Assembly: GCF_900250115.1 (NCBI RefSeq)
Contig: NZ_LT984803.1
Span: forward strand, 1,825,583 to 1,889,582
Length of the DNA: 64,000 nt
Source of the DNA: Cupriavidus taiwanensis
GTDB taxonomy: Bacteria; Pseudomonadota; Gammaproteobacteria; Burkholderiales; Burkholderiaceae
Direction: 5' to 3'
Shown here: positions 5,550 to 59,752 of the stretch, one piece after another
How the letters are laid out: each line of letters opens with the position of its first letter
Position numbering within the stretch: the stretch's first letter is position 1
Translations under genes and position numbers: made by a program
Notes under the pieces: model-generated
What the model was told of the DNA's origin: nothing
The model's database searches: none
Seen by the model: the letters and a program-made list of their open reading frames with translations, nothing else

Positions 5550-6467
5550 ATGTCCCAGCCAGAAGCGCCCGGAACGGCGACACCCGGGTCCAAGCCTGGA
5601 ACTCAGCCCGAAACCCCTGCGGCGCCTACGCCCCAGGCAGCCGAGCGCCCCGCGGTGCGCACCGTGTTCATCGTCTCGGATGGCACCGGCATCACCGCCG
5701 AGACCTTCAGCCACTCCATCCTGGCCCAGTTCGAAATGCGCTTCCGCAAGGTGCGCATGCCCTTTGTCGATACCCCGGAAAAGGCACATATCGCCGTCGG
5801 CAAGATCAACGAGGCGTTCCACAACGAAGGCGTGCCGCCGATCGTCTTCACCACGCTGGTCAACCAGGAAGCGAACAAGGCGCTGCGCCGCGCCAAGGCG
5901 ATGATCCTGGACATGTTCCAGACCTTCATCGAGCCGCTCGAGAAGGAACTGGGCGTGAAATCCACCCACGCCATCGGCCGTTTCCACCAGAATGCGGACA
6001 CCGAGGCCTACAAGAACCGGATCGAGGCGATCAACTTCTCGCTGGCGCATGATGACGGCCAGTCACACAAGAACCTGGAGGAAGCCGATGTGATCCTGGT
6101 GGGCGTGTCGCGCAGCGGCAAGACCCCGACCAGCCTCTACCTGGCGATGCAGTACGGGCTGAAGGCGGCCAACTATCCGCTGATTCCCGACGACTTCGAG
6201 CGCGGCAGGCTGCCGTCGGCGCTCTATGCGTTCAAGCCGAAGATCTTCGGCCTGTCGATCGACCCGCAGCGCCTGACCGAGATCCGCAACGAGCGCCGCC
6301 CCGGCAGCAAGTACGCCGCGCTGGAAAACTGCCGCTACGAGGTCAACGAGGCCGAGGCGATGATGCGGCGCGAAGGCATCAAGTGGCTGTCGTCGACGCA
6401 CAAGTCGATCGAAGAGATCGCGACCACGATCCTGCAGGAGATCAAGGTCGATCGCGACAACTACTGA
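5550..6467 (+). CDS. ppsR: PEP synthase regulatory kinase/pyrophosphorylase (PSRP)
   Basis: Bifunctional regulator (DUF299 family) that inactivates PEP synthase by ADP-dependent phosphorylation of a threonine next to the catalytic histidine, and reactivates it by phosphate-dependent removal. The P-loop-like [11 protein letters not shown] is at about residues 184-194. The N-terminal [20 protein letters not shown] and the later [20 protein letters not shown] are family signatures, and the C-terminal [18 protein letters not shown] is the segment near the active site. The first 30 residues are Pro/Ala-rich and probably disordered. I start at 5550 because the predicted promoter covers the upstream ATG. 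Its position divergent from ppsA gives strong functional context. Confidence 0.95.
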
Positions 6468-6470
6468 AGC

Positions 6471-6499
6471 AAAAAAGCGGCCGTACTGGCCGCTTTTTT
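6471..6499. terminator. Bidirectional terminator between ppsR and the RNA methyltransferase gene
   Basis: A perfect 12-bp stem, AAAAAAGCGGCC / GGCCGCTTTTTT, with a 5-base loop starts three bases after the ppsR stop codon. The A- and T-tracts on both sides allow it to end transcription from both convergent genes. Confidence 0.92.
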
Positions 6500-6518
6500 G
6501 TGGGCCGCGCGGCCCCGG

Positions 6519-7301
6519 TCAGCCGGCGCGCCGCTGGCGCACCGCCTCGAACAGGCAGATCGCCGTCGCCGCGGCGACGTTCAGCGACTCCATCCCGCCC
6601 GGTTGCGGAATGCCGACCTTGCGCGTCACATGCGCCATCCAGCCCTCGCTGACCCCTGCCCCTTCGTTGCCGACCACCCACGCCACCGGTCCGCGCAGGT
6701 CGGTATCGAACACCGCGGTCTCGGCGTGCGACGAGGTCGCCAGCAGCGGGATCGCCAGGCGCGGCGCCAGCGCCTCGAGCGTGCAATGCTCGACGATATT
6801 CAGGTGGAAGTTCGCGCCCATGCCGGCGCGCAGGGTCTTGACCGACCACGCGAAGGCGCAACCGGTGGCAAGGAAGGCGTCGCGGATGCCCGCCGCGGCC
6901 GCGCTGCGCAGGATCGAGCCGACGTTGCCGGCGTCCTGCACCCCGTCCAGGATGATGCAGTCCTGCTCGATGCGCGCCGGCAGGCGGCCCGCCGGCGTCT
7001 CGATCACCAGCATCAGGTCGATGCCATTGACCACGCCGCTGATCTGCGTGAACAGCGCATCGGCCAGCACCACCACGCGCTCGCTATCCACCTGCGCCAG
7101 CAGCGGCGCCACTTCGGCGTGGTCGTAGTGGCGCTCCGACACCACGCAGGTCACCGGCTGGCCGCGCGCGGCGACGTAGGCCTGCGCCAGGTGCACGCCG
7201 TCGAGCAGCGACTGGCCCGCCTTGCGGCGCTGGTGCGTGGAACCGGCAAGCGCCTTCAGGTGCTTGAACAGCGCGTTGTCGCGCGAGGTGACGTGCTTCA
7301 C
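6519..7301 (-). CDS. TrmH/SpoU-family RNA 2'-O-methyltransferase
   Basis: A 260-residue SPOUT-class methyltransferase. The N-terminal part ([20 protein letters not shown], then [11 protein letters not shown]) is the substrate-binding domain found in RlmB/TsnR-like members. The C-terminal catalytic domain has the trefoil-knot motifs: [30 protein letters not shown] at about 213-222, and [20 protein letters not shown] near the end. It probably 2'-O-methylates a ribose in rRNA or tRNA, but the target nucleotide cannot be told from sequence. Its ATG overlaps the rnhB stop by four bases, so it is the last gene of the long lpx-rnhB series. Confidence 0.9.
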
Positions 7302-8092
7302 GATGCTTCGGGTGGCAGGAAGGTGCCGAGCTTGGCGGCGGCGGGCGCGGCACCGGCAAAGGCGTCTGCGTCAGCGTCGGCGTCGGCGTCGGCCTCAACG
7401 ATGGCAATGTCTTCGATGGCTGGCGCGGCGGCGGCCATGGCGGTAAACAACGGCCGCAGCGCCAGCGCCTCGCGCACGGGCGCGAACGAGCGGCGGTGGT
7501 GCGGGGTCGCGCCGAATTCGGCCAGCGCGGCCATATGCTGCGGGGTGCCGTAGCCGACGTGCGAATCGAAGCCATACTGCGGATAGGCCGCGTGCAGCTC
7601 CATCAGGGCACGGTCGCGCGCCACCTTGGCCAGGATCGACGCCGCCGAGATCGCCTTGACCAGCGCATCGCCCTTGACGATGGCTTCGACCGGGTACGCC
7701 ACCTGCGGGCAGCGGTTGCCGTCGACCTGCACCAGGTCCGGCACCACGCCGCTGGCGGCCAGGCCCTGCACGGCACGCTGCATCGCCAGCATGCTGGCGT
7801 GCAGGATGTTGATGGTATCGATTTCCTCGACCGTGGCGAAGGCGATATGCCAGCCCAGCGCGCGCTCGCAGATCTTCTCGTACAGCGCCTCGCGTTTGGC
7901 GGCGGTGAGGATCTTGGAATCGGCCAGGCCGCGGATCGGGCGTTTCGGGTCGAGCACCACCGCGGCGGCATAGACCGGGCCAGCCAGCGGGCCGCGGCCG
8001 GCCTCGTCGACGCCGCACAGGCGCTGGATGGCGCCGGCGGCCGGCGCCAGGTCCAGTCCCAGCTGCGGCGAGGCAGCATGGCGGCGTGCCAT
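7298..8092 (-). CDS. rnhB: Ribonuclease HII
   Basis: Degrades RNA in RNA-DNA hybrids and incises at single ribonucleotides in DNA. The catalytic [19 protein letters not shown] block is near residue 28, and [15 protein letters not shown] and [17 protein letters not shown] follow in the usual order. The ATG at 8092 overlaps the lpxB stop as TGATG; the reading frame stays open further upstream but only this start gives the family N-terminus. The protein is longer than most RNase HII because of a C-terminal tail of about 50 residues. This tail contains a run of alternating Ala-Asp ([15 protein letters not shown]) encoded by hexamer repeats. The same lpxB-rnhB-methyltransferase order is common in proteobacteria. 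Confidence 0.95.
7364..7398. repeat. GGCGTC hexamer microsatellite inside rnhB
   Basis: About six copies of a GGCGTC-like hexamer encode the alternating Ala-Asp stretch in the C-terminal tail of RNase HII. Slippage by whole units would change tail length by two residues without a frameshift. Confidence 0.8.
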
Positions 8093-9309
8093 CAGACGGT
8101 CCCCCGGCTGCGCAACAGGTCGACCACCACATCGGCCGCCAGTTGCGCGGTGTTGCACTTGAGCGTCTCGTGCATGCGCGTGAAATGCTCGTACAGGAAG
8201 GCGGTGTTGCCCTCGTCGTTGAGCTGCAGCAGGGTCTCGCGCGCCAGCGCCTCGGGCGTGGCGTCGTCCTGCAGCAACTCGGGCACGACAAAGCGCCCTG
8301 AAAGGATATTAGGCAATCCCACGTAAGGCAGATAACCCTGGCGCTTCATGATCTGCGCGGTCAGCCAGGGCACCTTGTACGAGATCACCATCGGCTTCTT
8401 GTACAGCGCCGCCTCGAGCGTGGCGGTGCCGCTCGCCAGCAGCACCACGTCGGCGGCCTCCATGGCCTGGTGCGACTTGCCGTCGACAATGGTAAGGCAC
8501 AGTTCCGGATGCTGGTGGTGCAAGTCTTCGACGATGGCGCGCAGCGGTGCGCTGGCCGCCGGCAACACGAACGCCAGCTTCGGGTCCATGCGCTGCATGC
8601 GAGCCATCGCCGCGAAAAAGGTGGCGCCGAGGTTGCGCACCTCGGACTGGCGGCTGCCCGGCAGCACTGCCACCACGCGGTGTCCGGCCGGCAACTTCAG
8701 CGCGGCGCGCGCGCCGGCCACGTCGGGCACCATCGGGATCACGTCGGCGAGCGGATGGCCCACGTAGGTGGCCGGAATGCCGGCCCTGGCGTAGATCTCG
8801 GGCTCGAACGGGAACAGGCACAGGATGTGGTCGACCGCGCGCGCGATGGTGCGGATGCGCCCGCCGCGCCAGGCCCAGATCGACGGGCTGACGAAATGCA
8901 CCACCGGGATGCCGGCGCGGCGCAGCGGCACTTCCAGGCCGAAATTGAAGTCGGGGGCATCGACGCCGATAAAACACAGCGGCGGCTCGGCCAGCAGCCA
9001 CTCGCGCACCGCGCGCCGCGTGGCGAGGATCTCGCGCAGCGAGCCCAGTACCTCGACGTAGCCGTTGACCGACAGCGTTTCCATCGGCCAGCGCGAGGCG
9101 AAGCCCTGCGCCATCATGCGCTTGCCGCCGATGCCGGCGTAGTCGACGCTCTCGCCGGTCTCGGCCAGGCGGGCCTGCAGCCCGCCCATCATCAGCGAGG
9201 CCAGCAGGTCGCCCGAGGCCTCGCCGGCCACCATGGCGATGGTGCCGCGCTTGCCCGCGGCGCTACCGTTGCCCGCGGGCAGGTCCTTCCGAATCGCGGC
9301 GTCAGCCAT
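8092..9309 (-). CDS. lpxB: Lipid-A-disaccharide synthase
   Basis: Condenses UDP-2,3-diacylglucosamine with lipid X to form the tetraacyl disaccharide of lipid A (GT19 glycosyltransferase, peripheral to the inner membrane). The 405 residues include [21 protein letters not shown] near residue 25, YVSP-type strand [14 protein letters not shown], and the sugar-nucleotide part [12 protein letters not shown] and [20 protein letters not shown]. The first 20 residues are a non-conserved polar extension. It lies 12 bases downstream of lpxA and shares its stop with the rnhB start. Substrate supply comes from lpxA and lpxD in the same series; lpxC and lpxH are elsewhere. Confidence 0.97.
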
Positions 9310-9321
9310 GTGGGACCGGTC

Positions 9322-10125
9322 TCAGCGCACGATGCCGCGCTGGGTGGCGGCAAGGAAGTCGACAAAGGCCTGCAGCGGCGCCGCGGTGCCGGCATCCACC
9401 TGGGCCAGCAGTGCGGCAATCTCGTTGCGCGCCTCGTCGAAGCTGAGGTCGGACTTGTAAAGCAGCTTGTAGGCCTGGCGCAGTGCGGCGATCTGGCCGG
9501 CGTCGAAACCGCGGCGGCGCAGCCCTTCGACATTGATGCCGTGCGGCGTGGCCTTGTTGCCGCTCTTGTCGCTGGCCGCAATCACGTACGGCGGCACGTC
9601 CTGCACCAGTGCCGAGGCGCCGCCCAGCATCGCATGGGCGCCGATGCGCACGAACTGGTGCACGCCGCTCATGCCGCCCAGGATGGCCCAGTCGCCGACC
9701 TCGACGTGGCCGGCGATCTGCGCGTTGCTGGAAAACACGGTGTGGTTGCCGACCATGCAGTCATGGGCGATATGGACGTAGGCCATGATCCAGTTGTCGT
9801 TGCCGATGCTGGTCAGGCCGCGGTCCTGCACCGTGCCGGTGTGGATCGTGGTGAATTCGCGGATGGTGTTGCGGTCGCCGATCTCGAGCCGGGTCGGCTC
9901 GTTGCGGTACTTCATGTCCTGCGGCACGCCGCCGACCGAGGCATAGGGGCCGATGTTGTTGCCCGCGCCGATCGTGGTATGGCCCTCGACCGTCGTATGC
10001 GAGCCGATCCGGGTGCCGCTGCCGATCCGCACGTTGGGGCCGACGATGGAGAACGGGCCGACGCTCACGTCGGCGGCCAGCTCAGCCTTCGGGTCGACCA
10101 GTGCGGTGGGGTGGATTTGCGTCAT
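9322..10125 (-). CDS. lpxA: UDP-N-acetylglucosamine O-acyltransferase
   Basis: First enzyme of lipid A synthesis: transfers an R-3-hydroxyacyl chain from ACP to the 3-OH of UDP-GlcNAc. The 267 residues begin with left-handed beta-helix hexapeptide repeats ([20 protein letters not shown] onward). The catalytic His is at about 121 in [14 protein letters not shown], and the family signature [19 protein letters not shown] follows residue 65. The C-terminal third is helical, ending in [14 protein letters not shown]. The ATG at 10125 is preceded by AGGACAG. It follows fabZ after a 133-base gap and precedes lpxB. Confidence 0.98.
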
Positions 10126-10258
10126 GCGTACTGTCCTGTGATGGGTCTGGTGAAGGATGGGCCAATGCGCCGGGCAAAGGTTCCCGTCCGGGCCGTGCGC
10201 CCCGCGGCGCGGGGACGCGGCGGTCAGCCCGCGGCAGCGCCGCGGGCCGCGGGCGGCC

Positions 10259-10708
10259 TCACTCGGCCTGCTTCACGGTGCACATCAGCTCCGCCTCGCA
10301 GGCCACCTTGTCGTCGACCGTGGCGAACGCCTTGAACTTCCAGATGCCGCGGATATAGCGCTCGACCGTCACGTTCATGTGCAGCTGGTCGCCCGGGTAC
10401 ACCACCTGCTTGAAGCGGGCGCCGTCGATGCCGACGAAGTAGTACAGCGCGCCTTCCTTGCGCTCCATGTCGGCGCCGAAGGTCAGCAGGCCGGCCGACT
10501 GCGCCAGCGCCTCCAGGATCATCACGCCCGGCATCACCGGCTGCTCGGGGAAATGGCCCTGGAAGTACGGCTCGTTGATGGTGACGTTCTTCAGGGTCTT
10601 GATCCGCTTCTGCGCCTCGAACTCCAGCACGCGGTCGACCAGCAGGAACGGGTACCGGTGCGGCAGCAGCTTGAGGATCTTGCGGATATCGATTTCGGCC
10701 GCGCTCAT
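10259..10708 (-). CDS. fabZ: (3R)-hydroxyacyl-ACP dehydratase FabZ
   Basis: Dehydrates 3-hydroxyacyl-ACP in fatty-acid elongation and competes with LpxA/LpxD for the same acyl-ACP pool, which explains its place in the lpx cluster. The 149-residue hot-dog fold protein carries [16 protein letters not shown] near the start and the active-site helix [20 protein letters not shown] with catalytic His 52 and Glu 66. The ATG at 10708 has an AAGAGA ribosome-binding site. It lies 12 bases downstream of lpxD. Confidence 0.98.
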
Positions 10709-17547: not shown

Positions 17548-18369
17548 TCAAAGAAAAATCAGCATCAGGGCAGCCAGCGGGAACACCGGCAGCAAGGCGT
17601 CGATACGGTCCAGCACACCGCCATGGCCGGGCAGCAGCCGGCTGCTGTCTTTCTTGCCGACCTGGCGCTTGAGCAGCGATTCGAACAGGTCGCCCACCAC
17701 GCTCGCCGCAACCAGCAGCGTGGTCACCGCGGCGACGAAGCCCAGTCCGCCGCGGTCGCCCATGGCCGAGAACCAGGTCGGGGCAAAGGCGTGGGTGGCG
17801 GCCAGCGCGAGCCCGATCGCCAGTGCCAGCAGCCAGCCGCCGAGGGCGCCCTCCCACGACTTGCCCGGGCTGATGCCGGGCGCCAGCTTGCGCCGGCCGA
17901 TCGCCTTGCCGGTGAAATACGCGCCGATATCGGCGGCCCACACCAGCACCGCGGCGCTCAGCAGCACGCCGATGCCGGCGCCGCGCAGGACCATGGTGGC
18001 ATGGGCGAACGCGGGCAGCATCACCAGCCCCAGCACCGCGCCCAGCGCGGTGAAGGCCGGGGTCGCGGTGCGCACGCCGCGCGCCAGCAGCACCACCGCC
18101 ACGCCCCAGCACACCACCGCGGCCTCGAGCAGCCAGGTGATGGCGTGGCGCTGCGGCAGGTCATGCCAGGTGATGGTGGCGATCAGGCAGGCCAGCGCAT
18201 AGACGTAGGGCCACGGCCCGCGCAAGCCGATCAGGCGGCCGAATTCCCAGCCGGCCAGCAGCACGATCACGCCGAGCAGTCCCGCCAGGCCCGCCGGCGG
18301 CGCCAGGAACAGGATCGGCAGGATCAGCAGCAACAGGCACAGGGCGGTGATGACGCGGGTGAGGAGCAT
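17548..18369 (-). CDS. cdsA: Phosphatidate cytidylyltransferase (main copy)
   Basis: Makes CDP-diacylglycerol from phosphatidic acid and CTP, the branch point for all phospholipids. 273 residues with about eight membrane helices ([19 protein letters not shown] at the start). The family signature is intact near the C-terminus: [20 protein letters not shown] followed by [27 protein letters not shown] with [10 protein letters not shown] holds the conserved cytoplasmic CTP-binding residues. It lies between uppS and dxr, the canonical position. A second, longer homologue is at 52623-53585. Confidence 0.96.
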
Positions 18370-50521: not shown

Positions 50522-51525
50522 TCGAGCGTGATGCCGACATCGCGGATGATGCGGCTCCATTTGTCGCGGTCGTTCTTCATCACCGTGGCGAAGGCCTCCG
50601 GCGTGCCGCCCACCGGCACCAGGTTCAGGTCCTGCATCTTCTTCGCGACCTCGGGCAGTCGCACGATGCGCGCCACCTCGCGCGACAGCGCGTCGACCCG
50701 CGCCCTCGGCACGCCGGCCGGGAACAGCAGCCCCATCCATGCATCCGGCTCGAAGCCCTGGTAGCCGGCCTCGCGGAAGGTCGGCACCCTGGGCAGCAGG
50801 GCCGAGCGCTCGGCGCCGGCAAGCGCCACCGGCACCAGCTTGCCGCCCTGCAGCAGCGGCATCGCCGTGCCCACGGCAATAAAGCCGAGCTTCACATGTC
50901 CCGCGGCCAGGTCGGTGGCCAGCGGCGCGCCGCCCTTGTACGCCACGTGCTCCATCTGCACGCCGGCCTCGCGCTTGAGCAGCTCGCCCAGGATATGCCC
51001 GGTGGTGCCGGCGCCATAGGAGCCATACGGATACTTGCCGGGATTGGCCTTGAGCAGCGCCACCAGCTCGGGCAGCGTGCGCCCCGGAAAGTCCGGCGAC
51101 ACCGCCAGCATGGTGGACGAGATCGCGACCTCGCTGACCGGCGTGAAATCCGCGATCGGGTCATAGCCGATGCCGCGGTACAGCGACGGGTTCTGCACGT
51201 GCGCGGTGAAGGTCAGCAGCGCGGTGTAGCCATCCCGGGCCGCCCTGGCGACGTACTTGGTGCCGGTGGTGGTGCCCGCGCCGGGCCTGTTGTCGACGAT
51301 CACGGGCTGGCCCCAGCTCCTGGTCAGCTCCTGCCCGATCAGCCGCGCCACGGCGTCATTGACGTTGCCCGCCACCGACGGCACCACGATGGTCAGCGGC
51401 CGCGACGGATAGGGTTCGGCAGGGCCGGGATCGGCGGCCGCGGCTGCGGCCGGCATCACGGCGGGAACGGTGGCCATCAAGATGGCGGCCATGGCTGTGC
51501 GCAGCCATGCGGAACGGTATGGCAT
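50518..51525 (-). CDS. Periplasmic tripartite tricarboxylate (Bug) binding protein 2
   Basis: A second TctC/Bug-family binding protein (335 residues). The signal peptide MPYRSAWLRTAMAAILMATV runs to an Ala-rich AxA region near residue 30. The mature part shows SRPLTIVVPSVAGNVNDAVA (the usual PGG is replaced by SVAGN), VDNRPGAGTTTGTKYVARAA and GHVKLGFIAVGTAMPLLQGG. AGGAGA precedes the ATG. It is divergent from the LysR gene and first in a three-gene operon with the oxidoreductase and CoA-transferase, so the LysR protein probably controls uptake and use of one compound. Confidence 0.9.
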   Translation of the reverse strand: MPYRSAWLRTAMAAILMATVPAVMPAAAAAADPGPAEPYPSRPLTIVVPSVAGNVNDAVARLIGQELTRSWGQPVIVDNRPGAGTTTGTKYVARAARDGYTALLTFTAHVQNPSLYRGIGYDPIADFTPVSEVAISSTMLAVSPDFPGRTLPELVALLKANPGKYPYGSYGAGTTGHILGELLKREAGVQMEHVAYKGGAPLATDLAAGHVKLGFIAVGTAMPLLQGGKLVPVALAGAERSALLPRVPTFREAGYQGFEPDAWMGLLFPAGVPRARVDALSREVARIVRLPEVAKKMQDLNLVPVGGTPEAFATVMKNDRDKWSRIIRDVGITLE

Positions 51526-51709
51526 CGATGGGTCTCCTGTCTGGCGCCCTTCTGTAGTGCCCGCCGCAGTGTCCACTGCCGTGCGGTGCGCGAGGGATGC
51601 CACGCAGTCTAGGCCAGCGCCCGCGCCGCCGCGATTCCCGCGCGGCGCGAAGCAAGTCCCGGCAGGCATGGCGCTACAATGGCCCGCACCCCCAGCGCCA
51701 TCCCGCCCC

Positions 51710-52609
51710 ATGCGATTCGAGGATCTAGAAGCCTTCCTGGTCGTGATCGGCCAGGGCAACCTGCACCGTGCCGCCGAGACCCTGGGCATGACCCAGTCCG
51801 GGCTGTCCAAGACCCTGGCGCGGCTGGAAGGCGAAGCCGGCATGCCCCTGTTCGAGCGCACCCCGCGCGGACTGGTACCGACCGGCGCGGGCCACACCCT
51901 GGCCGCGCATGCGCGCCGGATCTCGCTGGCCGCCGGCGACATGCGTAGCGAACTGGCCGAGCAGCGCGCGGCGCGCGCCGGCACGGTGCGCCTGGGCGCC
52001 ATCCCCTACCTGCTGCCCTCGCTGCTGTCGCCGCTGCTGGCGCGCTTCTTCCTGAGCCGGCCGCTGGCCACGTTCTCGATCGAGACCCACCTGAGCGCGC
52101 GCCTGCTGGCGATGCTGCAGAACGGCGAAGCCGACCTGATCCTCGCTGCGCGCCCCGCCAGCGTGCCGGCGGAGGTTGCCTGGGCGCCGCTCGGGCCGCT
52201 CAGCATGCAGATCGTGTGCCGCAGTGCCCATCCGCGCCGCGAAAGCTTTCGCACCCTGGCGGACCTTGCCGGCGAACGCTGGGTGGTGCCGGCCAGCTCG
52301 CTGTACCTGCGCCAGTGGCTGGAACAACGGTTCACCGCGGTGGGGCTGCCGCCGCCGCGCGTGGCGGTGGAAAGCACGGCGTCGCCGGTGGCCTTCGGCG
52401 AGCTGCTGCGGCACTCGGACCTGCTCGGCATCATGCCGCCGCGCATGCTGCGCCAGGCCGAGGGCCAGGGGCTGGCCGCGATCGAGGCCCCGGGCACGTC
52501 GTGGCAGCACGAACTGGCGGTGCTGTGGCGCGCCGACGGCTACCTGTCGCCGATCTGCCAGGACTTCCGCGATGCGGTGGTGGCGTGGTGCGAAGAGATG
52601 GCGTTGTAA
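51710..52609 (+). CDS. LysR-family transcriptional regulator
   Basis: A 299-residue LTTR. The N-terminal winged helix-turn-helix is clear: MRFEDLEAFLVVIGQGNLHR, ETLGMTQSGLSKTLARLEGE, FERTPRGLVPTGAGHTL. The effector-binding domain follows (GTVRLGAIPYLLPSLLSPLL; ADLILAARPASVPAEVAWAP). The ATG at 51710 gives the standard HTH start; an ATG 14 codons earlier (51668) is possible. The 184-base gap to the divergent Bug gene should hold its operator. The convergent gene behind it belongs to the lipid operon and is unlikely to be a target. Confidence 0.92.
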   Translation: MRFEDLEAFLVVIGQGNLHRAAETLGMTQSGLSKTLARLEGEAGMPLFERTPRGLVPTGAGHTLAAHARRISLAAGDMRSELAEQRAARAGTVRLGAIPYLLPSLLSPLLARFFLSRPLATFSIETHLSARLLAMLQNGEADLILAARPASVPAEVAWAPLGPLSMQIVCRSAHPRRESFRTLADLAGERWVVPASSLYLRQWLEQRFTAVGLPPPRVAVESTASPVAFGELLRHSDLLGIMPPRMLRQAEGQGLAAIEAPGTSWQHELAVLWRADGYLSPICQDFRDAVVAWCEEMAL

Positions 52610-52622
52610 GCCGCTGAGCGGA

Positions 52623-53585
52623 TCAGGGCACCCACCAGTAGCGCGTGACGTGGAAGAACACCGGCGCGGCGAACACCACCGAGTCGAGCCGGTCGAGCAT
52701 GCCGCCGTGGCCCTGGATCATGTGACCCCAGTCCTTGATGCCGCGGTCGCGCTTGATCGCCGACATCACCAGCCCGCCAAGGAAGCCCATCAGCGCGATC
52801 ACCAGCGCGATCGCGCCGGCCTGCCACGGCGAGAACGGCGTGATCCACCACAGCGCCGCGCCCAGCGCGGTGGCGCTGGCGACGCCGCCGACAAAGCCCT
52901 CGACGGTCTTGGACGGCGACAGCAGCGGCGCGATCTTGCGCTTGCCGCACAGCTTGCCCCACACGTACTGCAGCACGTCGCTGCCCTGCACTACGATCAC
53001 CAGGAAGGCGATCAACAGCAGGTTGCGCCCGTCGAAGCCCGGGATCGGCAGCGTCAGCAGCGCCGGCACGTGCGAAATGCAGAACACGCACACCATCACC
53101 GCCCACTGCACCCCGGCGCAGCGCTCCAGGAAGCGCGTGGTCTCGGACGACAGCGCCGCCAGGATCGGCAGCACCAGGAAGGCGTAGACCGGGATCAGGA
53201 TCGAGAACATGCCGTACCAGCCGATATAGACCAGCACGTACTGCAGCGGCAGGAACACGAAGAACGCGGCGACGATGGCGCGATGGTCGCCGCGCCGCGT
53301 GGTGATGATGGTGACGAACTCGCGCAGCGCGAAGAACGACAGCAGGGAGAACAGCACGATCACCGCGGTGCGGCCCAGCGCGAAGGCCACGCCCATGATG
53401 CCGATCATCCACCACCAGGCGCTGACGCGCTGCGCCAGGTTGTCGATCACCGCGTGCCGGCCGCCGCCCGCCACGCGCCAGCGCAGCAGCGCGGTCACGG
53501 TCGAGGCCAGCAGCAGCACGCCGAACAGGCCGCCGAACAGCAGCCAGGTCTCGCGGCTCCAGTGCAGGGTGGGCATGGCGTTCAT
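52623..53585 (-). CDS. Second phosphatidate cytidylyltransferase (YnbB-like)
   Basis: A 320-residue CdsA homologue with about eight membrane helices. The family signature is complete: SAIKRDRGIKDWGHMIQGHG then GMLDRLD. GSDVLQYVWGKLCGKRKIAP and SPSKTVEGFVGG hold the other conserved residues. It is longer than the housekeeping CdsA at 17548, with an extra N-terminal membrane part (LLFGGLFGVLLLASTVTALL). It overlaps the PlsC gene upstream by four bases (ATGA) and is the last gene of a six-gene operon. It likely makes CDP-diacylglycerol, or a CDP-lipid variant, for the CDP-alcohol transferase of the same operon. Confidence 0.9.
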   Translation of the reverse strand: MNAMPTLHWSRETWLLFGGLFGVLLLASTVTALLRWRVAGGGRHAVIDNLAQRVSAWWWMIGIMGVAFALGRTAVIVLFSLLSFFALREFVTIITTRRGDHRAIVAAFFVFLPLQYVLVYIGWYGMFSILIPVYAFLVLPILAALSSETTRFLERCAGVQWAVMVCVFCISHVPALLTLPIPGFDGRNLLLIAFLVIVVQGSDVLQYVWGKLCGKRKIAPLLSPSKTVEGFVGGVASATALGAALWWITPFSPWQAGAIALVIALMGFLGGLVMSAIKRDRGIKDWGHMIQGHGGMLDRLDSVVFAAPVFFHVTRYWWVP

Positions 53586-54208
53586 TCCAGTTCCGGGGCC
53601 AGCGCGAGCAGGCCCGCGCGGCAGCGCGCAAGGAAGGCGTCCTTGCTGTCGTCGGCGGCCAGCCGCAGCGGCTGGCCGAAGGTCACGGTGCACAGCAGCG
53701 GCACCGGCACGATTTCGCCCTTGGGCATCACGCGGTTCAGGTTGTCGATCCATACCGGCACGAACTCCGCCTCGGGGCACGCGCGCGCCAGGTGGTAGAT
53801 GCCGCTCTTGAACGGCAGCAGGCGCGCATCGGTGGTGTTGCGCGTGCCTTCGGGAAACAGGATCAGCGAGTCGCCCGCCGCCAGCGCGGCCTGCATCAGC
53901 GCCACCGGGTCGCTGCCGGGATCGCTGCGGGTGCGGTCGATCAGCAGCGCTCGGAACACGTCGCGGCCGATAAAGCGGCGCAGCGGCGATGTCTCCCAGT
54001 AATCGGCGCCCGCCACCGGCCGCGTCACCGTGCGCAGGTCGGGCGGCAGGCAGCCCCAGATCAGCACGAAGTCGCCGTGGCTGCTGTGGTTGGCAAAGTA
54101 GACGCGCTGCACCGCGGCCGGGATGCAGCCCTGCCAGTTGGCGCGCATGCCTGTCAGCAGCCGGGCGAAGACGATGATGGCGCGCGCGGTGGCGCGGGCA
54201 AGCCACAT
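53582..54208 (-). CDS. PlsC-family 1-acylglycerol-3-phosphate acyltransferase
   Basis: A 208-residue lysophospholipid acyltransferase. It has the catalytic HxxxxD in FANHSSHGDFVL near residue 37, and the phosphate-binding FPEGTRNTTDARLLPFKSG near 118. The third and fourth PlsC blocks (VPVWIDNLNRV and IVPVPLLCTVTFGQPL) follow. It is shorter than most PlsC proteins and likely monotopic. It probably acylates lysophosphatidic acid or another lyso-lipid to supply the CDS-type enzyme that overlaps it. No other acyltransferase of this family is seen in the window. Confidence 0.9.
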   Translation of the reverse strand: MWLARATARAIIVFARLLTGMRANWQGCIPAAVQRVYFANHSSHGDFVLIWGCLPPDLRTVTRPVAGADYWETSPLRRFIGRDVFRALLIDRTRSDPGSDPVALMQAALAAGDSLILFPEGTRNTTDARLLPFKSGIYHLARACPEAEFVPVWIDNLNRVMPKGEIVPVPLLCTVTFGQPLRLAADDSKDAFLARCRAGLLALAPELE

Positions 54209-54214
54209 GGTTGT

Positions 54215-54658
54215 TTACCTCAAGACCAGGGACAGCAGGGCCAGCAGCAGCTGGCACACGGTCAGCGCGGCGCTGGCGCGCACCAGGCGCAGCGCGCCGC
54301 GGGCGCGTTCGGACAGCGGGCGTGCGGCCCGCGCGGCCGGCATCCAGCCCAGTTCAAGCAACGCGCCATCGAGCCCGCCCAGGTCGGCCTGGTCCGGCAC
54401 GCGCCCGGCAAGCGCGCCGAACAGGCGGCGGTCGATCGCGACGCGCAGCAGCAGCCACAGCTGGGGCAGCGCCAGCAGCAGGGCCAGCGCCGCCGGCCAG
54501 CGCGAGAGCGCGGTGCCCGCGCCCAGCCACGCCGCCAGCATGGCGAACGCCAGTCCCGCGGCGCCGATCCACGCGGCCCCCGCGAGCGCGCCCGTCACCG
54601 CGTGCGCGATCCAGGCGTCGGTGCGATGCGCCAGACCTGCGTCGTGATCAGCGGCCAT
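54215..54658 (-). CDS. Small membrane protein of the lipid operon, unknown function
   Basis: A 147-residue protein with two hydrophobic segments in the first half (ALAGAAWIGAAGLAFAMLAA and ALALLLALPQLWLLLRVAID) and one at the C-terminus (ALTVCQLLLALLSLVLR). A polar stretch between them is rich in Arg/Asp/Leu. I recognise no domain. The ATG at 54658 (GGAG seven bases upstream) lies inside the end of the PAP2-phosphatase gene (11-base overlap). Its fixed place in the operon suggests a partner or scaffold for the lipid enzymes. Confidence 0.75.
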   Translation of the reverse strand: MAADHDAGLAHRTDAWIAHAVTGALAGAAWIGAAGLAFAMLAAWLGAGTALSRWPAALALLLALPQLWLLLRVAIDRRLFGALAGRVPDQADLGGLDGALLELGWMPAARAARPLSERARGALRLVRASAALTVCQLLLALLSLVLR

Positions 54659-56024
54659 CGCCAGGCTCCTGCGTGGCCGCACGGTCGAGCCAGCGTTGCA
54701 GCGCTTCGGCATGTTGCTGGCCGAGCACCACCGCCGGCCGATGCTGGCGCAGCGCCGCCAGCGCGGCGCCAGCATCGCGCAGCCCCTGCCGCCGCGCCAG
54801 CCACGCTGCCGCGACCAGCGCGCTGCGCGAATAGCCCAGCGCGCAGCTGACCAGCACGCGGCGTCCCTGGCGCTGCCAGGCGTCGAGCTGCGCCACCGCC
54901 TGCCCGATCTGCTGCGGCGTCGGCACGGTCAGGTCCAGCACCGGCACGCAGCGATAGGCGAGTCCGGGCGCCGTGGCCGCGCGCGGCAGTTCGGCGCTGA
55001 GGTCAAGCACGGCATCCGCGCCGAGCACGCGCAATTCGGACCGCGTCGGGAAGCGCCCCACCCAGACACCCGGCGCGATCGCGCTGGCCTGCGGCGCGCG
55101 CCGTGTCCACCAGCGTGAGTTGAGGAAGGCGCCCAGCAGGTAAGGCGCGAGCACCCAGCGCGCGGCCGGCGCGATCTTGCCGTCGCCATCCTTCTGGAAC
55201 CACGCCGGCGCCGCCAGCGCGTAGATGCGCGCCACGCAGGCCAACGCCAGCGCGGCCCACAGCAGCAGGAACGCGAGCGTCACCGATGCGCCCACCGCCA
55301 GCAGCGCGCACAGCAACGCCACCACAGTGCCCGCGCCGTAGCGGCGCGACAGCTGCCGCGTGCGCGCATCAGGCACGCCGGCCGCGGCGGCGGGCAGCTG
55401 CATCGGCAACAGGTAGACGCATAGCCAGCCCACCAATGCGCCCGTGGGCACGTCGATCAGGTGATGCTGCCAGGTGGTCAGCACCGACACCCCGATCAGC
55501 GCAAACCAGCCGTGCAGCAACCAGCGCCAGCCGCCGCGCAGGTGCGCCGCGAAGGCAAGCCACAGGATCACCAGCAGGCTGATATGCAGCGACGGCGCCT
55601 GGTTGAACGGCAGGTCGAAGCCGCCCAGCAGCGTGAACAGCTGGCCCGGCAGGCCGTCGGCAGCGGGCCGCGCAAAGCTGAAGCGCAGCGGGAAGGCGAT
55701 AAAGCACGCCACCGACACCAGCTGCGCCAGCACCAGCCGCTTGACGTGCGTGAGCAGCGCCGCGCGGCTGCGCCACAGGAAGAACGAGATGCCGTACAGC
55801 AGGTCGATCGACCAGTACGGCACGATGGTCCAGGGCAGGAACGGAATGCCCCGCTCCCATGCGAAGTGGAACGACGGCACCTCGGCGCGCTGGCTCGCCA
55901 GCCAGTTGGCAAAGCCATAGCTGGAGAAGAACAACGCGCCGGCCAGCGCCAGCAGCAGGCAGGCCAGGCCCCACGGCCGCCGCGCCGGCGCGGCGGCGCC
56001 GGCCTGCGTCGGCACCGTGCTCAT
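54648..56024 (-). CDS. PAP2 - dual-specificity phosphatase fusion (YnbD-like)
   Basis: A 458-residue membrane protein made of two phosphatases. The N-terminal part (1-270) has about six helices and PAP2 active-site elements: NQAPSLHISL (Ser 145, His 147) and TTWQHHLIDVPTGA (His 188, Asp 191). These resemble the SGH and HxxxD motifs, though Leu replaces the Gly. The C-terminal part (about 315-458) is a dual-specificity (tyrosine-phosphatase-like) domain with P-loop CALGYSRS (Cys 394, Arg 400) and a possible general-acid Asp at about 364. The ATG at 56024 overlaps the upstream stop as ATGA. It would dephosphorylate lipid phosphates at two chemical centres. A similar fusion is E. coli YnbD. Confidence 0.88.
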   Translation of the reverse strand: MSTVPTQAGAAAPARRPWGLACLLLALAGALFFSSYGFANWLASQRAEVPSFHFAWERGIPFLPWTIVPYWSIDLLYGISFFLWRSRAALLTHVKRLVLAQLVSVACFIAFPLRFSFARPAADGLPGQLFTLLGGFDLPFNQAPSLHISLLVILWLAFAAHLRGGWRWLLHGWFALIGVSVLTTWQHHLIDVPTGALVGWLCVYLLPMQLPAAAAGVPDARTRQLSRRYGAGTVVALLCALLAVGASVTLAFLLLWAALALACVARIYALAAPAWFQKDGDGKIAPAARWVLAPYLLGAFLNSRWWTRRAPQASAIAPGVWVGRFPTRSELRVLGADAVLDLSAELPRAATAPGLAYRCVPVLDLTVPTPQQIGQAVAQLDAWQRQGRRVLVSCALGYSRSALVAAAWLARRQGLRDAGAALAALRQHRPAVVLGQQHAEALQRWLDRAATQEPGDGR

Positions 56025-57790
56025 GCGCCGCGCCTGCGCGCCAGGCTGACGGTAAAGATGCCCCACGGATCGATGCGCTGCGTGACCTTGTCGAAGCCCG
56101 CGGACCGCACCAGTTCATCCATCTCGGCCTGCGAGCGGCGCCGCATCACCCAGGCCGCGCCGGCGCGATGGCTGGTCAGCGCGCGCGCGATGAATTCCAG
56201 CTGTGGATGCCAGGGCTGGCCGGTGTAGACCAGGTAGCCGCCGGGCGGCACCGCGCGCGCCAGGCCGTCGAGCGAGCGTCGCACCATGGCGTTGTCGGGG
56301 AACAGCTCGTACAGGCCGGACACCACCGCCAGCGTCGGCGCGGGCGCCAGCGCGGCCAGGCTGTCGCCGTCGAAGGCATCGCCCTGCTCGAAGCGGGCCA
56401 CGTGCTGCAGGCCCTTGGCGGCAATCAGGGCGCGGCCCTGCTCCACGTTCAGCGCGCTGTAGTCGCGCAGCAGGATCGACGCGACCGCGGCCGCGCCGCC
56501 CTCCAGCGCGCCCAGCGCTTCCAGCACGTAGCGGCCATGGCCGGCGGCGATATCGACCATGCGCACCGGCATGCCGGCCGCGCGCAGGCGGCGCACGGCC
56601 TCGGCGATCAGCGCCTCGGCGTTGACCTTGCGCTGGCGGATGCCGCGCCAGCCGATCGCGTCGAGGTATTGCCGGTCGGCCAGCCGGCCCAGCGCGCCGC
56701 GGCCGGACGGCGTGTTGCGGTAAACGTAGTCGAGCGTCGAGCCCGAGTCGAAGCCGGTCTGGTGGCCCAGCCGGACCCCGTCCGACAGCATCCCGCCCAG
56801 CCTCAGGTTGGCCCGCGCCGCGCGCCAGTACCAGGCGGCCAGGCCGCCGGGCGCCGACGCCAGCCGGTCGGCTTCCTCGCGGAACGGGCCGATCTGGTCG
56901 GCATCGAGCAGCGAGCGCGGTGCCGAGGGCGCGTCGAATTCGCGCAGGATAAAGCGGCGCGCGGCATCGACCGCCAGCTTGCGCTCGCGTTCGCCAAGGG
57001 TGTCGTGGTAGAAGCCGTCCAGCACGATGCGCTCCTTGGTGCGCGAGCCCAGGCGCTCATAGAAGCGCTCCTGCGGCCCGCGGTGCACGACCCAGTCGGC
57101 GCCGGAGATCAGCAGCTGCGTCGGCACCGTGATCGCGGCCGCGTCGGCGACGATGCGCTCGGCGGTCTGGTACAGGTCCAGCAGGATATTGACCGCGATC
57201 GGGCGCGTGATCAGCGGATCGCTGTCATAGCTGGCGATGCGCTCGGGATCGTGGCTCAGGAACTTTGCCTTGACGTAGCTGTTGACGAAGAACTTGCCGC
57301 GCAGGCGCTGCATCAGCTTCAGCCCCGGCCGCGCGAACGGTACGTACAGCTTGACCTTGAACGCCGGCGACGCCAGCACCAGCGCGCGGATCGGCGGCGC
57401 GTAGTCGTGCACCCAGGTCGCGGCCAGCACCGCGCCCACGCTCTGCGCGACCACCGCGGTGCGTTCCAGCGGGATGCCGTGGACTTCGGCGATATGCGCG
57501 GTGAAGGTCTGGATGTCGCGCACGGAATCGGCCAGGCTGGGGCTGTAGCCGCGTTCGCCGGGCGATTTGCCGTGGCCACGCGCGTCCCAGGCAAAGATGT
57601 CATGGCCGGGCAGGTGGAGCTCGTCGGCGAGGTGGGCGACCCGGCCGGAATGCTCGTGGCCGCGGTGGAACAGCAGCACGGCGCCGCGCGCCGGGCCTTC
57701 CACCGCGGGCCAGTGGCGATAGAACAGCGCCTGGCCGTCGTGGGTCTCGAATTGCCGCTCCAGCGGCTGGCGGGAAGACGGTCGGTCCAT
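56021..57790 (-). CDS. Alpha/beta hydrolase - SAM methyltransferase fusion (YnbC-like)
   Basis: A 589-residue protein of two enzymes. Residues 1-290 are an alpha/beta hydrolase like monoacylglycerol lipase: FHRGHEHSGRVAHLADELHL and WDARGHGKSPGERG. The triad is Ser 117 (VVAQSVGAV; first Gly of GxSxG replaced by Ala), Asp 232 (ISGADWVVHRG) and His 262 (DGFYHDTLGE). Residues 380-589 are a class I methyltransferase with motif I VDIAAGHGRYVL at 412-422 and LAVVSGLYELFPDN. The middle region (300-380) has no known domain. The ATG at 57790 gives the hydrolase start; it is four bases from the CDP-alcohol transferase gene. Size and layout fit E. coli YnbC (585 residues as I recall). Confidence 0.9.
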   Translation of the reverse strand: MDRPSSRQPLERQFETHDGQALFYRHWPAVEGPARGAVLLFHRGHEHSGRVAHLADELHLPGHDIFAWDARGHGKSPGERGYSPSLADSVRDIQTFTAHIAEVHGIPLERTAVVAQSVGAVLAATWVHDYAPPIRALVLASPAFKVKLYVPFARPGLKLMQRLRGKFFVNSYVKAKFLSHDPERIASYDSDPLITRPIAVNILLDLYQTAERIVADAAAITVPTQLLISGADWVVHRGPQERFYERLGSRTKERIVLDGFYHDTLGERERKLAVDAARRFILREFDAPSAPRSLLDADQIGPFREEADRLASAPGGLAAWYWRAARANLRLGGMLSDGVRLGHQTGFDSGSTLDYVYRNTPSGRGALGRLADRQYLDAIGWRGIRQRKVNAEALIAEAVRRLRAAGMPVRMVDIAAGHGRYVLEALGALEGGAAAVASILLRDYSALNVEQGRALIAAKGLQHVARFEQGDAFDGDSLAALAPAPTLAVVSGLYELFPDNAMVRRSLDGLARAVPPGGYLVYTGQPWHPQLEFIARALTSHRAGAAWVMRRRSQAEMDELVRSAGFDKVTQRIDPWGIFTVSLARRRGA

Positions 57791-57794
57791 CGCG

Positions 57795-58421
57795 CTACTC
57801 CGCAAGGCGGGACTGCGCCTCGGCAATGCCGCGGCGCACCCGGTTGGCCATCGTGAACAGCGACAACAGCGACAGCAGCAGCCACAGCCAGCTGGCGGCG
57901 ACGCCGAAGCCCAGCCCCAGGCCCGCCCACAGCGCGAGCGCGCCCACCGCGAAGGCGCGGTCGCTCTTGCCGAGCGGGCCGTCATAGCGCCGGCTGGCGC
58001 CGGCCAGCGGCCCGATCAGTCCGGCCGCCTCGACCAGCAGCGCCAGCAGCGCGAAGGTGCCCACCTGCCCCAGGCTGAAGCCGGGCAGCGCGGCCAGCGG
58101 CAGGATCAGCGCCAGGTCCGAGACCATGTCGCCGAGCTCGTTCAGGTAGGCGCCCAGCACGCTCTGCTGGCCATGCTCGCGCGCCAGCAGGCCGTCGATG
58201 GCATTGAGCGCCATGCGCGCGAACAGCCACAGCGGAAACAGCAGGAACAGCGCCGGGGTCTCGGCCACCAGCATGCCCAGCGTGGCCAGCACGCCGACCG
58301 CCAGCGAGCCCGCGGCGGCGGCCAGCGTGACCTGGTTGGCGGTCACGCCGCGCTGCGCCAGGTCTTGCACCAGGGGGCGCAGCCAGGCCTGGAACCTGGG
58401 TTTCAGTTCGTAGAGCGTCAT
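57795..58421 (-). CDS. CDP-alcohol phosphatidyltransferase with altered metal motif (YnbA-like)
   Basis: A 208-residue membrane protein with about six helices and the CDP-alcohol transferase motif at 73-98, which joins a CDP-lipid to an alcohol. The usual form is D-x2-DG-x2-AR-x8-G-x3-D-x3-D. Here it reads N73-x2-D76-G77, A80-R81, G90, N94, D98, so the first and third Asp are Asn. D98 and D76 remain. The remaining family features and the neighbouring CdsA and PlsC support a lipid-synthase role. The product alcohol is unknown. First gene of the operon; the ATG at 58421 gives the family N-terminus. Confidence 0.88.
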   Translation of the reverse strand: MTLYELKPRFQAWLRPLVQDLAQRGVTANQVTLAAAAGSLAVGVLATLGMLVAETPALFLLFPLWLFARMALNAIDGLLAREHGQQSVLGAYLNELGDMVSDLALILPLAALPGFSLGQVGTFALLALLVEAAGLIGPLAGASRRYDGPLGKSDRAFAVGALALWAGLGLGFGVAASWLWLLLSLLSLFTMANRVRRGIAEAQSRLAE

Positions 58422-58618: not shown

Positions 58619-59689
58619 CTAGGCCGACGCGATCGTGCTGCGCACGGCGTCGCCCACCTGCGCCACCACGCCCTCGCGCCAGTCGTCGGCGTCGCCGTAG
58701 AAGGCGCGCCACATTGCCTGGCGCACCAGCGCGCGCTGGTTCTCGTCGGCCTCGGGGTGCCGGTGCAGCCAGTGGTCGCCGCGCAGGGCGTCCAGCACCT
58801 CGCCCACCGGCAGCGTGCCGAACTCGAGCGCGATGCCGGCGTAGTCCACCGCCGGCAGGGTCTGCGGCACGGCGTGCCAGGCCAGCCCGGTCAGGTTGGC
58901 CGAGGTCGACGAGCCATCGTAGATCGAGGTCACGCGCTCGCCCCAGATCGCGCGCGTGCGTGTGATTGACTCGGGCGTGTCCGGGCCCATGTGGATCGGC
59001 TCGCCGTAGCCCCACGGGCCCAGGCCGGTATGGATGTCGATCCAGCGCAGCGCTGCGCGGCCGGCGCCGAAGCGCGCCAGGATGCGGCACAGCGTGTAGT
59101 TGCTCCAGGTGGCCTGGTCGCCGCCGTAGAACATGCCGCCCGGATCCTGGTACTGGCCGCTGCTGACCGCGGCCTGGTACCACGCCATGCCGCGCTCGGC
59201 CACCGCCTTCATCAGCCGCGCCTGGTCGGACTCCGACGGCGGCCATTGCGCCGGCAGCAGCAGCGGCGCGATTTCGGCATAGGCGGCGTTGTGCGGCAGC
59301 GGCTGCGAGAAATCCATGAAGTTGCGGTTCAGGTCGACGTTGTCCTCGTTGACCCGGCGCAGGTGGGAGAAGCCGTAGGGGTTGACCGCATGCACCAGCA
59401 GCAGGCAGGCGTCGGCGGCGGCGCAATCGGCAAGCAGCGCCGCGTCGCGCAGCAGCGCCGTTTGCGCCCCGGAACCGGCAAAGCCCTCGGCACCGTGCGT
59501 GCCCGAGGTCACCATGATGCAGCGCCGGGCCTCGGGCGCGCCGGCCAGCGCCACGTCGATCGCGAGTTCTTCGCCGGCGCTGCCGCGCCGGGTGGGATGC
59601 GGAAATTGCGCCAGCGCGGCGCCCGCGGCGCGGGCGGCGTCGAGGAAGGCCCGGCGCGCTTCGGCGTAGCTGCGAGAAAAATGGCTCAT
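58619..59689 (-). CDS. DUF2817/M14-like metallopeptidase
   Basis: A 356-residue protein related to zinc carboxypeptidases of the DUF2817 group. SGTHGAEGFAGSGAQTALL (about 59-77) resembles the HxxE metal site (His, Glu), NRNFMDFSQPLPHN follows an N-R-N motif, and WIDIHTGLGPWGYGEPIHM holds the third His ligand. No signal peptide is visible, so it is probably cytoplasmic. The ATG at 59689 is chosen over 59728 because the conserved part starts soon after; there is no strong Shine-Dalgarno sequence. It lies near a peptide-uptake operon and may act on small peptides or amides. About 200 bases separate it from the lipid operon. Confidence 0.8.
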   Translation of the reverse strand: MSHFSRSYAEARRAFLDAARAAGAALAQFPHPTRRGSAGEELAIDVALAGAPEARRCIMVTSGTHGAEGFAGSGAQTALLRDAALLADCAAADACLLLVHAVNPYGFSHLRRVNEDNVDLNRNFMDFSQPLPHNAAYAEIAPLLLPAQWPPSESDQARLMKAVAERGMAWYQAAVSSGQYQDPGGMFYGGDQATWSNYTLCRILARFGAGRAALRWIDIHTGLGPWGYGEPIHMGPDTPESITRTRAIWGERVTSIYDGSSTSANLTGLAWHAVPQTLPAVDYAGIALEFGTLPVGEVLDALRGDHWLHRHPEADENQRALVRQAMWRAFYGDADDWREGVVAQVGDAVRSTIASA

Positions 59690-59752
59690 GGCGTCACCCG
59701 GGGATGCGATGCAGGCATTAGACGCCAATTCGCCGGGTCTCGCCAGTCGCGG

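Follow-up and report, generated by a model that had tools for sequence, protein, structure and literature searches.

Six adjacent minus-strand genes of Cupriavidus taiwanensis, here referred to as genes A to F, form a grouping that is more than chance and is kept together in related genomes. We consider, with a probability of about 0.5, that this operon represents a dedicated side pathway in which a CDP-activated lipid is turned into a single minor phospholipid. Judged from its alignments, gene A is predicted to be a non-standard CDP-alcohol transferase, with two signature residues replaced throughout its lineage. The genes lie in a stretch of 64,000 nucleotides (the window, whose numbering is used throughout unless a locus is named) from a genome of 7.0 Mb in 3 contigs, and their positions are compiled in Table 1. 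The initial annotation had described six tightly packed minus-strand genes, and its coordinates, starts and spacing all agree with ours: A and B are separated by 4 bp and D and E by 6 bp, and overlaps of 4, 11 and 4 bp are found between B and C, C and D, and E and F, respectively. Its protein types also agree with Pfam, with A just below the cut-off, the PAP2 match sub-threshold and D without a match. The upstream neighbor is a DUF2817 gene (58619-59728; Pfam, 459 bits) that ends 197 bp before A, and downstream a plus-strand open frame (51470-52609), a LysR-type regulator as read by eye, converges on F.

Table 1. Genes of the operon and the two asparagine codons of gene A, in window coordinates
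Feature	Position	Strand	Basis
Gene A, YnbA-type CDP-alcohol transferase, 208 aa	57795-58421	minus	PF01066, 21.1 bits; 47% identity with YnbA
Gene B, lipase-like alpha/beta hydrolase-methyltransferase fusion of YnbC type, 589 aa	56021-57790	minus	PF12146 and PF12147
Gene C, dual-specificity phosphatase of YnbD type with a PAP2-like membrane domain, 458 aa	54648-56024	minus	PF00782
Gene D, small membrane protein, 147 aa	54215-54658	minus	Three hydrophobic stretches
Gene E, PlsC-like acyltransferase, 208 aa	53582-54208	minus	PF01553, 57 bits
Gene F, CdsA paralogue of YnbB type, 320 aa	52623-53585	minus	PF01148, 228 bits
Asn73 codon of gene A, place of motif Asp1	58203-58205	minus	Alignment
Asn94 codon of gene A, place of motif Asp3	58140-58142	minus	Alignment

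In the proposed pathway, gene E would acylate a lysolipid to phosphatidic acid, gene F would activate the latter with CTP, and gene A would move the phosphatidyl group onto a phosphate-bearing head group. The phosphate would be stripped by gene C through its dual-specificity and PAP2-like domains, gene B (lipase-like hydrolase plus methyltransferase) would trim and/or methylate the product, and gene D would serve as a membrane helper. We infer each of these reactions, their order and one product that joins all six genes. A single pathway in this order had been suggested earlier; it still fits best because of the gene order, the co-occurrence and the intact catalytic residues, but it has to be amended in that A is non-standard and YnbB has a published activity.

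We searched one genome per species with gene B and kept the best 80 of 551 loci, which are hence close relatives; they span Cupriavidus, Paraburkholderia, Pseudomonas, Hydrogenophaga, Variovorax, Xenophilus, Parachitinimonas and others. When gene content was scored with profiles built from these same loci, the exact order A-B-C-D-E-F on one strand was found in 73 of the 80. The number rises to 75 with L033, which has the six-gene order and an extra E-type match upstream, and L042, in which A is split over two open frames; E. coli (L003) and the short loci L084-L112 are excluded from the count. The exceptions are L007, L030, L060 and L077, which lack genes beside a contig end, and L023, in which E-F is divergent. 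At L033 (Hydrogenophaga taeniospiralis) the E-type match (6e-29) stands at the end of a long open frame that directly precedes A (6281-9328 of that locus), and the earlier part of this frame resembles by eye a lysophospholipid transporter of the LplT type; L030 is similar. At L135, which comes from a small genome, B and C are separated by an inserted WG-repeat protein (717 aa; 8208-10361 of that locus).

Across 398 evenly sampled Pseudomonadota genomes, a set that the searches for A, B, C and F are all taken to cover, gene B was present in 27. All six genes stand in order in 22 of these carriers, including our own genome. Among the others, E-F is divergent in G324; A is divergent and F is on another contig in G253 and G043; G204 has A-B-E-F with C elsewhere; and G296 has A-B with F elsewhere, and gene C was not found in it. 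Thus A and F accompany B in 27/27 genomes and C does so in 26/27. Moreover, full-length C (E below 1e-140) was found in 26 of the 398 genomes, all of them within the 27 carriers; some search alignments contain the carriers' own sequences, so that re-finding those is partly circular, but absence elsewhere is not. The initial annotation had named genes not kept together in relatives as the finding that would count against it; this comparison was run, and the genes were together in most carriers examined. The distribution is patchy, with B in one of eight sampled same-family genomes outside Cupriavidus.

In E. coli (NC_000913), ynbA, ynbB, ynbC and ynbD lie on one strand and are followed by azoR on the opposite strand. 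The initial annotation had stated that ynbABCD contains four of the same protein types, and BLASTP bears this out, with identities of 47% (A-YnbA), 36% (F-YnbB), 61% (B-YnbC) and 40% (C-YnbD). In both species the four matching genes lie together on one strand, but the order corresponds to A-F-B-C in E. coli and is A-B-C-D-E-F here, where D and E separate F from C. Genes D and E, for which the fetched E. coli ynb stretch holds no counterparts, had been regarded as two additions. They are indeed absent from the ynb locus, but the six-gene order is the commoner form, and therefore the four-gene locus of E. coli looks like a reduced case. A query comprising ynbA, ynbB, ynbC and the start of ynbD was matched in 4568 of 5426 E. 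coli genomes, with at least 80% coverage in 4239.

A smaller unit became apparent when A and F were followed separately. Gene A was found in 37 of the 398 genomes (E 1e-25) and F in 69 (E 1e-50), and 36 of the 37 genomes with A also contain F. Among the 10 genomes with A and without B, F is in the same cluster in nine (L143-L151, with L145 as fragments) and E in eight; L152 has A alone, without F or E. Of the 33 genomes with F and without A, 20 were fetched and their loci scored for gene E, which adjoins F in all 20. A second transferase-like subfamily, here named A2, is close by in 14 of these loci (L153-L164, L169 and L171), and no transferase was seen near F-E in the other six (L165-L168, L170 and L172). 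Because E adjoins F without A, and A or A2 is mostly nearby, we conclude that E, F and usually a transferase are a unit, and that B, C and D are additions to it. Against a single pathway speak the absence of B, C and D from many genomes with the smaller unit and the six of 20 F-E loci without a visible transferase; the patchy distribution, the failure to find C in G296, the published link between YnbB and MPIase and the absence of a reported phospholipid defect in the ynbB deletion also count against this main reading.

Some of the smaller clusters contain further genes. Beside A-F-E, L146 (4149-10703) carries a YdbH-like gene (PF11739, 913 bits; intermembrane phospholipid transport) and a YdbL-type DUF1318 gene, and on the other side an azoR-like gene by eye, as at the E. 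coli locus; a link of the ynb genes to lipid export is possible. A membrane protein follows E in the A-F-E clusters of L148, L149 and L150, and that of L149 has a sub-threshold VTT (DedA-type) match (29 bits vs a cut-off of 33.9), while the member from L148 has no match. L156 (5974-6378) and L158 (7340-7735) encode a membrane-like protein of only about 132 aa between F and A2; the L158 member has no Pfam match, and this protein may take the role of gene D.

Gene A is a distant member of its family. Its protein scored 21.1 bits against PF01066 (E 4e-4; cut-off 22), and 22.1 bits, above the cut-off, in the genome scan. The gene A profile matched PgsA1 of M. tuberculosis (MtPgsA1) over residues 8-194 (E 1.4e-10), and this match to the PIP/AIP synthase branch (MtPgsA1 and AF2299) covers nearly the full length. 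In NCBIfam its best matches were archaetidylinositol-phosphate (AIP) synthase with 64 bits and phosphatidylinositol-phosphate (PIP) synthase with 33.8 bits, both far below the respective cut-offs of 180 and 170, and there was no PgsA model among the matches at E 0.01. According to excerpts of PMC4634129, the motif D1xxD2GxxAR...GxxxD3xxxD4 comprises eight absolutely conserved residues, D4 is the likely base, and an Asp-to-Asn change at D4 nearly abolishes activity; the same excerpts contain no Asp-to-Asn test of D1 or D3. D68, D71 and D89 of MtPgsA1 bind metal 1, and D89 and D93 bind metal 2 (PMC6506517, in excerpt).

Gene A keeps six of the eight signature residues (D2, G1, A, R, G2 and D4). 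Asparagine occupies both the D1 and D3 places in 110 of 111 aligned gene A rows, the remaining row being a gap, and also in 120/120 of the gene A relatives listed, which are the best 120 of 8000 scored; by alignment E. coli YnbA carries the same pair. R155 and R194 of A are invariant in 24 rows and align with the acceptor-phosphate arginines R155 and R195 of MtPgsA1. Residues matching R94, S132, K135 and R137 of MtPgsA1 are not kept (alignment, read by eye; roles of the acceptor- and inositol-side residues as given in the excerpts of PMC6506517 and PMC4634129). Gene A therefore shares with the PIP/AIP synthases six motif residues and two phosphate-binding arginines, but differs from them in having Asn for Asp1 and Asp3 and in not retaining the inositol-side residues. 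Because the phosphate-holding arginines are kept but the inositol-side residues are not, the acceptor of A is likely a phosphorylated compound other than inositol phosphate. The Asn pair points to an altered metal site and hence to an unusual acceptor or donor; given the two missing signature residues, A might not be an ordinary transferase, or might even be inactive.

These alignments also bear on a phosphatidylinositol-type lipid, in which A would make phosphatidylinositol phosphate and C would dephosphorylate it. Such a product would agree with the nearest NCBIfam models of A and with a phosphatase domain of C near that of PTPMT1 with PI(5)P, but the scores against both models and the loss of the equivalents of the four MtPgsA1 residues make it very improbable. 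Inositol-1-phosphate synthase (PF01658) had no match in our own genome and matches in 6 of 14 control genomes. An inositol lipid was dropped as the main reading on account of this lack of a PF01658 match and the inositol-side residues not kept in A.

We then asked where else the Asn pair occurs. The A2 proteins, which lie beside the same CdsA-PlsC pair, have Asn at both sites in 14/14, and the Arg of their 'AR' motif is replaced. Two members scanned gave no Pfam match at E 0.01. A 5-member A2 profile matched AF2299 (2.6e-10) and MtPgsA1 (8.6e-6), matched the AIP and PIP synthases of NCBIfam, both below cut-off, and matched the gene A profile by hhalign (98.9%, 1.8e-17). The motif control comprised 37 CDP-alcohol transferase matches, 30 of them with loci read for motifs. 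Among 33 such loci from our own genome and 10 others, 27 have Asp/Asp and five Asn/Asn, all five being gene A; locus L201 has Asp too, with different spacing as read by eye. All 28 of the 28 non-A control proteins checked thus retain Asp. The orphan A of L152, which is without F, has Ala at D1. In a maximum-likelihood tree of 60 proteins, whose root is not known and which sampled 13 of the 14 A2 proteins and 13 of the 24 rows of one gene A alignment, A and A2 were joined with support of 98/87 and separated from 27 Asp-type proteins, of which L199 and L202 are on long branches and unsure in placement. The Asp-type proteins include housekeeping types, and A stands apart from them. The simplest account would be a single origin of the Asn pair, retained in the company of a YnbB-type CdsA and a PlsC-type enzyme.

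Phosphatidylglycerol synthesis proceeds through PlsC, CdsA, PgsA and a PGP phosphatase, the last a role known for PTPMT1-like as well as PAP2 proteins. The operon has the same succession of protein types and could be a duplicate of this pathway, in which E would give phosphatidic acid, F CDP-DAG and A phosphatidylglycerophosphate, with C as the phosphatase; its parts correspond, and some database names for A relatives read CDP-diacylglycerol--glycerol-3-phosphate 3-phosphatidyltransferase. However, we find this improbable: by NCBIfam, A falls outside the PgsA type and scores best with AIP/PIP synthases, and in the tree it lies apart from the Asp-type proteins, housekeeping ones included. Such a duplicate would also leave the Asn pair and B unexplained, B and D have no counterpart in phosphatidylglycerol synthesis, and the host genome encodes further CDP-alcohol transferases besides A.

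Genes B to E also have invariant residues, some of which are expected to be catalytic. Gene B matched PF12146 (Hydrolase_4) with 246 bits and PF12147 (Methyltransf_20) with 505 bits, and its Ser117, Asp232 and His262 as well as D413, G417 and G419 of the SAM loop are invariant in 16 rows. A fold search with B gave only alpha/beta hydrolases among the matches listed, mostly monoglyceride lipases, and was silent on the substrate of the methyltransferase. Gene C matched PF00782 (DSPc) with 54 bits and reached only 18.9 bits for PAP2 (cut-off 27.2); at E 0.01, PAP2 was matched in 21/22 and PAP2_3 in 18/22 of its homologues. D364, C394, R400 and the motifs PSLH and HHxxD are invariant in 22 rows, and the Asp acid and the CX5R loop of a PTPMT1-type lipid phosphatase are both present. 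Dual-specificity phosphatases took up the fold-search listing for C; its phosphatase domain is close to PTPMT1 with PI(5)P, and no PAP2 structure was among the matches listed. Fusions of a dual-specificity phosphatase with diacylglycerol kinase (NCBIfam PRK12361 type) have a related domain (127 bits), but their partner is a kinase, whereas that of C is a PAP2-like membrane domain (two proteins scanned).

Gene D had no Pfam or NCBIfam match, and its homologues gave five unrelated weak Pfam matches, each in 1/21. Its D76, D97, R118 and G121 are invariant in 21 rows, and those of its 120 listed relatives that carry a name are called hypothetical or uncharacterized membrane proteins. In gene E, H41, D46 and FPEGTR are invariant in 18 rows. 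Gene F matched PF01148 (CTP_transf_1) well above the cut-off of 24, as CdsA does, but is encoded apart from the other CdsA of the genome; that it is a 'second CdsA', as annotated initially, is right, the sole other PF01148 match lying at about 17557-18360 of the window.

The lipase-like half of B invites a different use of the same enzymes, namely lipid turnover or repair, in which B would deacylate, E reacylate and C dephosphorylate, and A would be a liponucleotide-binding or regulatory protein rather than a transferase. The resemblance to monoglyceride lipases and the loss of two of the four metal aspartates in A are consistent with this. We consider it unlikely, as A shows no variation in the rest of its motif, in D4 or in the phosphate-binding arginines, so that its site appears to be under selection, and A and F still co-occur where B and C are missing.

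The initial annotation held that ynbABCD has no known product. In the open-licence literature we found nothing on the ynb operon as a pathway, on a lipid assigned to it or on the Asn pair, but YnbB does have a published activity and a link to MPIase. The excerpts of these papers report that YnbB makes CDP-DAG in vitro and restores MPIase under CdsA depletion (PMC7018664), that its overproduction increases MPIase and that YnbB-type proteins are unable to replace CdsA in E. coli (PMC6362211). After deletion of ynbB, MPIase was normal (PMC6362211, PMC7018664) and, in the excerpt of PMC7018664, no phospholipid defect is reported. Sato et al. 2019, as cited in PMC7018664, assigns YnbB to MPIase. 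Transposon hits in a strain that produces ECA solely in the phosphoglyceride-linked form include ynbB, which is reported not to be needed for that synthesis (PMC8609368, in excerpt). YnbA is described as a predicted choline-phosphotransferase in the excerpt of PMC12871917, which also cites activation of ynbA by BglJ-RcsB; 'ynbA' is absent from the main text of PMC6362211.

From this literature it might be proposed that the core genes assemble a glycolipid with a pyrophosphate linkage, for example the MPIase precursor: F would give CDP-DAG, A would join it with a sugar-1-phosphate to sugar-PP-DAG, and C would recycle lipid phosphates and pyrophosphates. The nucleophile would then be a phosphate, which might account for the two carboxylates missing from A, the effects of YnbB on MPIase fit, and the GlcNAc-PP-DAG assays, which according to the excerpt of PMC6362211 used membranes, extracts or partly purified CdsA8, leave room for a helper such as YnbA. 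However, PMC6362211 (in excerpt) attributes the formation of the precursor to CdsA itself, and MPIase is normal in the ynbB deletion. A also retains D4, the residue proposed to act as base on an alcohol acceptor, and there is no sugar-enzyme-like gene in the operon, which leaves us doubtful of this proposal.

The most interesting part, and one absent from the initial annotation, is the Asn-pair transferase lineage that is tied to its own CdsA and acyltransferase. We tentatively suggest, as a possibility held with low confidence, that the YnbA type and A2 are one lineage that co-evolved with a PlsC-type enzyme and CdsA of the YnbB type, constituting an unrecognized class of lipid-making trios in Pseudomonadota with an altered metal center and different acceptor chemistry. 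If so, the acceptor may be, for example, phosphate, giving a pyrophosphate-linked lipid, and E. coli YnbA would be an enzyme of the same kind, possibly the partner of YnbB in MPIase synthesis. The finding raises the questions of how a CDP-alcohol transferase would function with two metal ligands as amides, and why the Asn variant travels with its own CdsA and acyltransferase. The ynb genes are present in most E. coli genomes searched, Pseudomonas, Cupriavidus and other Burkholderiales repeatedly carry the six-gene form, and the operon of E. coli K-12 is a ready model.
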